Assembly: GCA_039028155.1 (NCBI GenBank)
Contig: JBCCIS010000035.1
Coordinates: 1-50,396, forward strand
Length of the DNA stretch: 50,396 nucleotides
From: Pseudomonadota bacterium
GTDB lineage: Bacteria > Pseudomonadota > Alphaproteobacteria > SP197
Direction: 5' to 3'
Below the pieces are notes generated by a model. The model was given only the letters and a program-made list of their open reading frames with translations, ran no database searches and was not told where the DNA came from. Position 1 is the first letter of the stretch. Each line of letters opens with the position of its first letter. Position numbers and translations under genes: made by a program. This document shows, one piece after another, positions 16,400 through 19,578 of the stretch.

Positions 16400-17527
16400 T
16401 CAATCGGCCGATAGGGACGCGCGAAAACCCGCGACAAACGCGTCGACATCGGGCTCGATGCAAACGATGACCCAGGCGCCTTTGGCCATGTCCCTGACCA
16501 GGCCGCCCGCATCCGCCGTCGCCAGATGGTGGCGCGGTTCGCCGCGCCAGTTCGTTGCGGGAAAGTCGTCCGCCGTGCCGGGATAGGACCAGCCGCTTGC
16601 CGCCGTTTCGGCCATGACATGCAGCGGCAGCAATGTGAACCGGCAGACCGACCCGTCGAACGCGATGCTCGCCGTCAACGGATCCCAGAAGTAGAACCCG
16701 CCGGATGCGATGGCGCCACTCAACACGTCATGGGCCCAGCGCGCCGGCGCCGTCTCGATGCCGTTGAAGATGCGGTCGGCGAGCGCGCTGTCGACCGGCG
16801 CGAGGTTGGTGGCGTCCAGGGGCACCAGGCGGATCGTCACGTCGGACGAAAACACCGCGTCCGCCGCCACGGGATCAAGGAACATGTTCCACTCAGCGAC
16901 CGTGTTGGCCGGCATCGTGCTGTCGCTGGGATCACCAACATTGCCGGATACATAGACGGCGCCGCCCATGACGACGACCTCGCGCACGTTCTCGACGATG
17001 TCAGGTGCCTTGTCGAAGGCAAGTGCGATGTTGGTCAAAGGCCCGATGGCCAGGATCCCGATCGGTTCGTCGGCCGCGCGCACCGTTTCGATGATCAGAT
17101 CGACACCGCCGCGCGGATCCGCCACCGCCTCAGCGACCGGCAGGGGTTTGAAGTTCTTCGGGTTCGCGGCGTCGCGCCAGGCCGGTGGCATGGCGTGAAA
17201 CCCGTCGAGTGGACTGGTCGCCCCGCACGCGACAGGGATGGCGCCGTCCTCGCCGGTGGCGAACAGAGCAAGCGCCAGCGCCATCGCCTCGGACCCCGGG
17301 CACCGCCCGACGCCGTCACCGACGATGCTGATCGCCCGGACGTCGATATCGGACCGGCCGAGCGCATAGAGCAGCGCCATCCAGTCTTCCTGGCCCATAT
17401 CGGTATCGATAATCCAGGCACGGGGAGCACCGGCATCGTCCGATTGCGCCTCCGCAAGGCCGCTTAACCCGGACAGCACCAACCAAACCCCTGCCCAAAG
17501 TGCGGCAATGCGACATCCCACCGACAC
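16400..17527 (-). CDS. Exported inosine-uridine-preferring-type nucleoside hydrolase
   Basis: 375 residues. The GTG start shares its first base with the stop of the preceding gene (TAGTG), so translation is probably coupled. A signal peptide (LWAGVWLVLSGLSGLAEA) directs it to the periplasm. The nucleoside hydrolase core is visible: WIIDTDMGQEDWMALLYAL (family DTDPGxDD, with Met-Gly-Gln-Glu-Asp here), LAIGPLTNIALAF, VVMGGAVYVSGN, EWNMFLDPVAADAVF and FYFWDPLTA. The enzyme splits the N-glycosidic bond of nucleosides, releasing base and ribose. Partner is the NHLP-type protein upstream. Confidence 0.87.
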   Translation of the reverse strand: MSVGCRIAALWAGVWLVLSGLSGLAEAQSDDAGAPRAWIIDTDMGQEDWMALLYALGRSDIDVRAISIVGDGVGRCPGSEAMALALALFATGEDGAIPVACGATSPLDGFHAMPPAWRDAANPKNFKPLPVAEAVADPRGGVDLIIETVRAADEPIGILAIGPLTNIALAFDKAPDIVENVREVVVMGGAVYVSGNVGDPSDSTMPANTVAEWNMFLDPVAADAVFSSDVTIRLVPLDATNLAPVDSALADRIFNGIETAPARWAHDVLSGAIASGGFYFWDPLTASIAFDGSVCRFTLLPLHVMAETAASGWSYPGTADDFPATNWRGEPRHHLATADAGGLVRDMAKGAWVIVCIEPDVDAFVAGFRASLSAD

Positions 17528-17844
17528 TAGGGCGCGTCCCCCAGGCCCCAGCAGGGATTGCGGTGGGTCGCCTCGTGTTTGGCGATCCGATCGGCGGTCG
17601 CGTCGTCCAGACCCATCCACGCGGGCACGCACGGCAGCACCAGATAGAAGACGTTCTCTTCCTCCTTGGCGATGCGGATCTCGACGCCGTCGGGGATCGT
17701 CTGACCGGGCTTGGCCTTGGCCAGTTCCTCCGCATAGACCGCCCTTGGATCGTCCAGAAGGCGTTTTCGGAAGGCCTCGTCCATGATCGCGCGGGCGATC
17801 AGACCGTCATCGAACGTGTTGCGTTGAAAGTGTTTCTCCGTCAT
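17527..17844 (-). CDS. NHLP (nitrile-hydratase-like leader peptide) family protein, candidate RiPP precursor
   Basis: 105 residues with GGAGGTCGCG before the ATG. Residues ~12-70 match the NHLP leader pattern: LIARAIMDEAFRKRLLDDPR, then TIPDGVEIRIAKEEENVFYLVLP. In this family the leader guides modification enzymes, and the region after V-L-P becomes a ribosomally made, modified product. Here the tail after VLP has ~35 residues with two Cys (CVPAWMG and RNPCWGLGDAP). No YcaO, radical-SAM, dehydratase or transporter gene is near, so it is an orphan precursor or a non-RiPP derivative. It is the first gene of a two-gene unit with the nucleoside hydrolase. Confidence 0.75.
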   Translation of the reverse strand: MTEKHFQRNTFDDGLIARAIMDEAFRKRLLDDPRAVYAEELAKAKPGQTIPDGVEIRIAKEEENVFYLVLPCVPAWMGLDDATADRIAKHEATHRNPCWGLGDAP

Positions 17845-18027
17845 CGCGACCTCCTGCCATCATGCAATTCCATCCGCAAGACCCTGTTGCGATGCTGACG
17901 CACACGGTATCGTCATTCAACCGGCAGGAAGTTTGAAGGGGCTGAAGCGTGTAGGTCCTTGGACTTGCCAAGGAGCGCCCCCATTCTTCTGTTGCGCGGT
18001 GGTCAAGGCACGCGCCTGGGAACTGCC

Positions 18028-19578
18028 ATGCCCGATACCGTCCCGTCACCCAAACCCAAACGCGGCGAGCGTTCGTCGCGGCGCAAGCACGCCGACAAAA
18101 CGCCCGCGCCCGCCGTCATCGCCGGCGTCCGGCGCCAGATCCCGCCCTATGTGCTGATGGCCGAGGAAGGCCTCGACCTCATCGAGCGTCACACCGACAG
18201 AATCCTCAAGGAGGTCGGCATCGAGTTTCGTGGCGACGAAGACGCGCTCCGACTCTGGCGAGACGCCGGCGCATCGGTCGACGGCAACCGCGTGCGCTTC
18301 GACGAAGGCCATCTCAAAGCCATCATCACCGCGACCTCGCCCAAGTCGTTCACCCAGCACGCGCGCAACCCCGACCGTTCGGTCGTCATTGGCGGCGACA
18401 ACGTCGTCTTCGCGCCGGCCTATGGCGCGCCCTTCGTGCACGACATGGATAACGGCCGGCGCTACGGCACGCTCAAGGATTTCCAGAACCTGATCACACT
18501 CGCCTACGCGTCGCCCTGGCTGCACCATTCCGGCGGCACGGTGTGCGAACCCGTCGATATTCCGGTCAACAAGCGCCACCTCGACATGGTCTACGCGCAC
18601 CTGACCTGCGGCGATAAACCGTTCATGGGGTCGGTCACCATGCCCGAACGCGCCGAGGACTCGATCGATCTCGCGCGCATCGCCTTCGGCGAAGACTTCG
18701 TCGACAAGAACTGCGTCATCATGGGCAATATCAACATGAACTCGCCCTTGGTTTACGACGGCGCCATGTCCGGCTCGTTGCGCGCCTACGCCCGCGCCAA
18801 CCAGTGTCCGGTGGTCGTGCCCTTCATCCTGGGCGGCGCGACCGGTCCCGTCACCATGGCCGGCATGATCGCGCAGTCGATGGCCGAGGTGATGGTCGGC
18901 ATTGCGCTCGGCCAGCTCGAGCGGCCGGGCTCGCCAGCCGTTTTCGGCAACTTCCTGACCACCGTCGACTTAAAGACCGGCTCGCCCACCTTCGGCACGC
19001 CGGAGCCGGCGCTGGGGTCTTACGTCGCCGCGCAACTGGCCCGGCGCATCGGCCTGCCGCTACGCTGCAGCGGCGCGTTCTCCTCGTCCAAGCTGCCGGA
19101 CGCCCAGGCGATGCAGGAAAGCGTCAACTCCATGAACACCGCCATCCTGTGCGGCGCCAACTTCGTCCTGCACGCCGCCGGCTGGCTCGAAGCCGCGCTC
19201 ACCATCGGCTACGAAAAACTCATGCTCGACGCCGACTATCTGGGCGCCCTCCACACGTTCGTGCGGGGCCTTCCCACCGACGACAACGCGCTCGCCATGG
19301 ATGCCTTCGCGGAAGTCGGCCCCGGCAACCACTTCTTCGGCTGTCAGCATACGCTGGCCAACTACGAGACCGCCTTCCACCGCTCCGACCTCGCCGACAC
19401 CCAGGCCTATGAGAACTGGCTCGACAACGGCGCGATGGATGCCACCACCCGCGCCAACGCCGCCTGGAAAAAGGTGCTGAAGGAAACCGAACCGCCGCCG
19501 CTCGACTCCGGCATCGACGACGGGCTCAAAGACTATATCGCGCGCAAGAAGGAGACCCTGCCGGACATCTGGCACTGA
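18028..19578 (+). CDS. MttB-family (COG5598) trimethylamine-methyltransferase-like protein, non-pyrrolysine
   Basis: 516 residues. The TIM-barrel methyltransferase family is recognised by YVLMAEEGLDLIERHTDRIL at the N-terminus, then VFAPAYGAPFVHD, LHHSGGTVCEPVDI, NINMNSPLVYDG and LLHAAGW-type FVLHAAGWLEAALTIGYEK. True TMA methyltransferases carry pyrrolysine at an in-frame TAG; this gene has none, so it belongs to the glycine-betaine/other-quaternary-amine (MtgB-like) branch. It would transfer a methyl group to a corrinoid protein, but no corrinoid protein gene is adjacent. ATG 18028 chosen since upstream residues show no family similarity. Confidence 0.88.
   Translation: MPDTVPSPKPKRGERSSRRKHADKTPAPAVIAGVRRQIPPYVLMAEEGLDLIERHTDRILKEVGIEFRGDEDALRLWRDAGASVDGNRVRFDEGHLKAIITATSPKSFTQHARNPDRSVVIGGDNVVFAPAYGAPFVHDMDNGRRYGTLKDFQNLITLAYASPWLHHSGGTVCEPVDIPVNKRHLDMVYAHLTCGDKPFMGSVTMPERAEDSIDLARIAFGEDFVDKNCVIMGNINMNSPLVYDGAMSGSLRAYARANQCPVVVPFILGGATGPVTMAGMIAQSMAEVMVGIALGQLERPGSPAVFGNFLTTVDLKTGSPTFGTPEPALGSYVAAQLARRIGLPLRCSGAFSSSKLPDAQAMQESVNSMNTAILCGANFVLHAAGWLEAALTIGYEKLMLDADYLGALHTFVRGLPTDDNALAMDAFAEVGPGNHFFGCQHTLANYETAFHRSDLADTQAYENWLDNGAMDATTRANAAWKKVLKETEPPPLDSGIDDGLKDYIARKKETLPDIWH

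Follow-up and report, generated by a model that had tools for sequence, protein, structure and literature searches.

In annotation pipelines, the NHLP fold at present serves as a flag for the precursors of RiPPs. In the definition of Haft et al. (2010, PMC2887384), NHLP precursors are marked by leader homology, by a Gly-Gly at the end of the leader, by a hypervariable core that is often rich in Cys, Ser or Thr, and by an ABC exporter that co-occurs with them. A smaller arrangement has been described in Paenibacillus, in which the cluster consists of a histidine kinase, the NHLP precursor PalX, and the prenyltransferase PalQ (PMC10853753). Here we describe an NHLP-type protein of 105 residues that fails three features of a RiPP precursor: the Gly-Gly, the hypervariable core, and the co-occurrence with maturases or exporters. 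The gene lies in a window of 50,396 nucleotides, by which we mean the whole stretch of DNA that was analysed (contig JBCCIS010000035.1 of the assembly GCA_039028155.1, from a marine alphaproteobacterium). The features of the window, and the comparable loci in other contigs and genomes, are collected in Table 1.

Table 1. Features of the window and of NHLP loci elsewhere. Locations without a prefix are window positions; G003 is the congener and G093 a member of another family.
Feature	Location	Strand	Remarks
NHLP-clan protein, 105 aa	17527..17844	-	ATG start, AGGAGG Shine-Dalgarno just 5'; TIGR03793 above cut-off
NHLP leader domain, residues 8-88	17581..17823	-	three-helix bundle (predicted); aligned to positions 2-75 of the 77 in the model
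K89-H90, at the Gly-Gly cleavage-pair position of other NHLPs	17575..17580	-	KH in congener, RH in G093
Fixed C-terminal tail EATHRNPCWGLGDAP, residues 91-105	17530..17574	-	15/15 in congener, 12/15 in G093
TAGTG stop/start overlap	17525..17529	-	NHLP TAG 17529-17527 and NH GTG 17527-17525, one base common
Exported IU-type nucleoside hydrolase (NH), 375 aa	16400..17527	-	PF01156, signal-peptide-like N-terminus
Block of ~65 bases, nearly identical in congener	17877..17941		divergent intergenic region between NHLP and MttB genes
Divergent MttB-family (trimethylamine methyltransferase-like) gene	18028..19578	+	
NHLP biosynthetic cluster, window genome	contig C4:90000-109000 (L093)		NHLP, two PhyH dioxygenases, C39-ABC, ABC, YcaO, squalene-cyclase-like protein, DMATS-like relative
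NHLP/squalene-cyclase-like fusions	L026:1483-2787 (G009); L027:388-1911 (G011)		
AGLCCCW precursors	L010:702-959 (G010); L064:1450-1728 (G291); L066:1447-1719 (G301); L070:1450-1737 (G368)		

The 105-residue protein is NHLP-type by profile, by fold match and by alignment. In a profile search it scored 57.9 bits with TIGR03793, against a cut-off of 50.9, and the models for the nitrile hydratase alpha subunit and for Os1348-type NHLPs matched it more weakly. An AlphaFold2 model gave a three-helix bundle (mean pLDDT 60); among solved structures it is matched best by two proteusin precursors, 8tb1 and 9cjx. The NHLP leader pattern that had been proposed from the sequence is thus borne out, including the match to NHLP models on which that proposal hinged. 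The nitrile hydratase metal site (C-x-L-C-S-C, or CTLCSC) is absent from all 105 residues, and by sequence the protein carries no signal peptide. The gene is not a chance open reading frame, because the congener (G003) has an orthologue of 91% identity with a dN of 0.04 and a dS of 0.46, and because the family model had no match in 14 control genomes; the resulting dN/dS of about 0.09 indicates a real gene under purifying selection. When we considered a mobile origin, nothing matched in phages or viral contigs, and among plasmids there was only a partial match, to one from Nostoc (65% coverage, 37% identity); both origins were rejected.

We sought homologues in three genome samples, comprising 96 relatives, 385 members of the class and 398 members of the phylum, and found full-length ones in only three genomes: that of the window, the congener (contig JANQGO010000161.1, isolate PL23b_bin.48), and a genome from another family (G093). 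The PL23b label appears in a study of metagenome-assembled genomes from the skeletons of the corals Porites lutea and Isopora palifera (PMC9868349). The orthologue in G093 is 63% identical over its full length and scores 62.7 bits with TIGR03793. Both G003 and G093 are draft assemblies with an estimated completeness of 95-96%. In G093 the NHLP gene ends a run of genes on one strand, separated by gaps of 14-57 bases, that encode a CN_hydrolase, an Orn/Lys/Arg (OKR) decarboxylase-like protein, an ATP-grasp protein and an AAT/C45 Ntn-hydrolase. The ATP-grasp gene suggested an amino-group carrier, with a C-terminal Glu as in LysW, but that residue has been lost from the window protein and we rejected this reading.

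The original prediction held that the protein ends in a tail of about 35 residues with two Cys. Both Cys exist, but C72 lies inside the leader domain and only C98 in the tail, which measures only about 15 residues because leader homology extends to residue 88. A Gly-Gly at the leader end is absent in three of three orthologues. For both the window protein and its G093 orthologue, the TIGR03793 alignment ends at position 75 of the 77 in the model; for true NHLP precursors from the same bacterial family it reaches position 77, with GG or AG. The tail, by comparison, varies little: its consensus over the three orthologues is HExTHRxPCWxLGDAP, and codons 89-105 have undergone no nonsynonymous change within the genus, whereas the rest of the protein is 90% identical to that of the congener and 60% to that of G093. 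With three sequences, the excess in the tail between the window protein and G093 (12/15, against 66/105 overall) is not significant (hypergeometric p 0.11), and because there are only three the conservation could reflect shared ancestry. The tail holds one Cys and one Thr, and is not the hypervariable core rich in Cys, Ser or Thr that is expected of an NHLP precursor. It is predicted to be disordered (AlphaFold2, pLDDT under 50), as a RiPP core would be, and other NHLP precursors of the sampled genomes also close with a Cys-Trp pair. An HExxH motif is present in all three orthologues, too few to weigh the idea of a zincin.

The neighboring gene encodes a nucleoside hydrolase with a strong match to PF01156 (E 7e-48; 164 bits, against a gathering score of 34.2). 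Its N-terminus, MSVGCRIAALWAGVWLVLSGLSGLAEAQ, resembles a signal peptide when read by eye, and its metal-site motifs are DTDMGQED, GPLTN, EWN and WDP. The first of these has Glu in place of Asp (D14E) relative to the usual DTDPGxDD, in the customary numbering of the catalytic Asp. As had been predicted, the NHLP stop codon overlaps the hydrolase start by one base, the G at 17527 belonging to both codons. In the congener, where the hydrolase is 90% identical, the overlap is the four-base GTGA.

On the other side of the NHLP gene, in the intergenic region toward the divergent MttB-family gene, the block that is nearly identical in the congener is a probable shared regulatory site of promoter or operator type. 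Scans of the region for sigma-70 promoters and terminators gave no useful signal, and no known structured RNA was found in the window at gathering thresholds. Among the window genes scanned around the NHLP gene we recognised no RiPP maturase and no peptide exporter, in agreement with the original prediction that no modification or transport gene lies nearby; an MFS transporter is encoded at about 22.4-23.9 kb.

We extended the search for maturation and export genes to the three orthologue genomes. No maturase adjoins any of the three NHLP copies. Neither G003 nor G093 has a YcaO, and no NHLM-type exporter (TIGR03796) was matched over the cut-off in any of the three. No C39-type NHLM exporter is present among the top transporter matches listed for G003 and G093: the TIGR03796 matches listed for G003 start beyond the peptidase region; in G093 a single match extends into it, and this belongs to an HlyB-like transporter in which no C39 cysteine motif was seen. 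The genome of the window itself carries an NHLP biosynthetic cluster on another contig, C4, whose own precursor has a core ending in NCWPNSPS. It also holds a YcaO-TfuA pair on contig C47 (L094:298-2315), with no obvious small precursor among the open reading frames read there. The remaining TIGR03793 hits of this genome are three operons of the nitrile hydratase/thiocyanate hydrolase type (L003, L004 and L005). Because of the C4 cluster and the YcaO-TfuA pair, modification in trans would be possible in the window genome, and to that extent the suggestion that enzymes elsewhere serve the precursor holds up; the lack of YcaO in the other two genomes, the missing Gly-Gly and the fixed core count against it.

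Other NHLP systems were encountered in the sampled genomes. Four other alphaproteobacterial genomes encode NHLP precursors whose AGLCCCW core does not vary; the precursors are 82-85% identical to the one in G010, and each of their genes is flanked by a gene for an RND/MMPL-like exporter and by an unannotated gene of ~370 codons. A relative of the latter in a further genome (G014) has a predicted aromatic-prenyltransferase (DMATS/CymD-like) fold, as judged by AlphaFold2 and Foldseek. The AGLCCCW set has the look of a fixed-core NHLP system not yet described, and we consider these precursors ending in CCCW, beside a protein of predicted aromatic-prenyltransferase fold, a stronger lead. In G014 this DMATS-like gene (372 aa, L130:9012-10130) lies, along with ABC genes of NHLM type, in an array of NHLP genes (L130:6334-11893). 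The 11 cores read from this array are variable; each has Trp as its last residue, and all are free of Cys.

How should the NHLP gene and its neighbor be interpreted? One of the two alternatives in the original prediction was that a leader-like domain has been recruited to act with a periplasmic nucleoside hydrolase. Its role might be that of a chaperone, regulator or subunit. The stop/start overlap is indeed kept in both members of the genus, with slightly different geometry (TAGTG and GTGA), and the upstream block is conserved. The pair goes no further, however: G093 has the NHLP gene, with an AAT/C45 protein as partner, and yielded no nucleoside hydrolase match at E 1e-10. Elsewhere among the relatives, other nucleoside hydrolases are at most about 42% identical to that of the window over about 210 residues, and the genomes that carry them were not found to have a full-length NHLP orthologue. 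Furthermore, the compartments differ, the signal-peptide-like N-terminus being on the hydrolase alone. Beyond the genus the pair is thus not conserved, an outcome that the original prediction had named as counting against it. We therefore reject a recurring module beyond the genus: by these comparisons the pairing is a feature of one genus, the link between the two genes is local to the lineage and probably incidental, and a functional partnership is very unlikely. We give almost no weight to a canonical proteusin precursor processed in trans by the YcaO/C39 machinery of the C4 cluster. That cluster exists, but it has an NHLP of its own; the window protein lacks Gly-Gly and has a single fixed core with one Cys, and its orthologue is retained in two genomes without YcaO.

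We give some credence, short of an even chance, to a precursor of a fixed-core RiPP, in which the NHLP leader would recruit an unlinked maturase (a prenyltransferase, YcaO or radical SAM enzyme) to modify the conserved Cys-Trp or the Thr of the tail. The NHLP fold, the family score and the predicted disorder of the tail are consistent with this account. PalX, itself an NHLP precursor, receives a prenyl group from PalQ on its C-terminal Trp (PMC10853753), other alphaproteobacterial NHLPs have their fixed CCCW core beside a protein of predicted DMATS fold, and contig C4 offers a YcaO, a C39-ABC and a DMATS-like relative. PalX/PalQ and the AGLCCCW system demonstrate that an NHLP core can be invariant, at least terminally, and contain Trp, like the PCW of the window tail. 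Against such a precursor stand the absence of Gly-Gly, the lack of an adjoining maturase at all three copies, and the lack of YcaO in two of the three genomes. It is unlikely, in our estimation, that this is a fixed-core NHLP peptide, kept in two bacterial families with neither Gly-Gly nor YcaO nor any recognised NHLM exporter, which is matured by an unlinked enzyme (for example one of the DMATS-fold kind that lies beside other NHLPs) and serves as a signal or cofactor and not as a toxin.

The reading that we prefer, which we hold with about even confidence, is that the window encodes an orphan protein of the NHLP clan with a fixed tail, and not a canonical proteusin precursor, and that the nucleoside hydrolase is co-expressed with it by operon position only. 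The protein keeps the predicted three-helix fold of the leader as far as the Gly-Gly position and then bears the fixed 15-residue tail, which is under purifying selection. It would work in the cytosol, unmodified, as a small protein in its own right. The conserved tail, with C72, H90, H94, C98 and W99, would be its working part; binding of a metal or of a partner protein is our most likely guess as to its role. The hydrolase would be merely co-transcribed and translationally coupled with the NHLP gene, as a passenger in the operon. There is precedent for an NHLP domain outside precursors: in G009 and G011 the leader domain is attached, at the N-terminal end, to a squalene-cyclase-like protein of about 430 aa. 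If confirmed, an orphan protein of this kind would mean that the NHLP fold occurs, too, in a stand-alone protein whose tail is fixed, and that NHLP hits alone would over-call biosynthetic clusters.

Compared with known systems, the window protein is like NHLP/proteusin/TOMM precursors in its leader above the cut-off, in its nitrile hydratase alpha ancestry without the metal site, and in its three-helix fold; it is unlike them in having no Gly-Gly, a fixed core, and no linked or reliably co-occurring maturase or exporter (PMC2887384). With PalX it shares the NHLP domain and a conserved Trp in the tail, and the PalX cluster too is named without YcaO or an NHLM exporter (PMC10853753). Unlike in PalX, six to seven further residues come after the Trp of the window protein, and no prenyltransferase adjoins the gene. 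The protein is homologous to the C-terminal region of the nitrile hydratase alpha subunit (PF02979, positions about 114-169), but is only 105 residues long and lacks the VCTLCSC metal-binding motif. Its neighbor is a clear member of the IU-type nucleoside hydrolases (PF01156; RihA/RihC, IAG-NH), from which it differs in its signal-peptide-like N-terminus, in the replacement of D14 by Glu, and in having Trp for His before the last conserved Asp.
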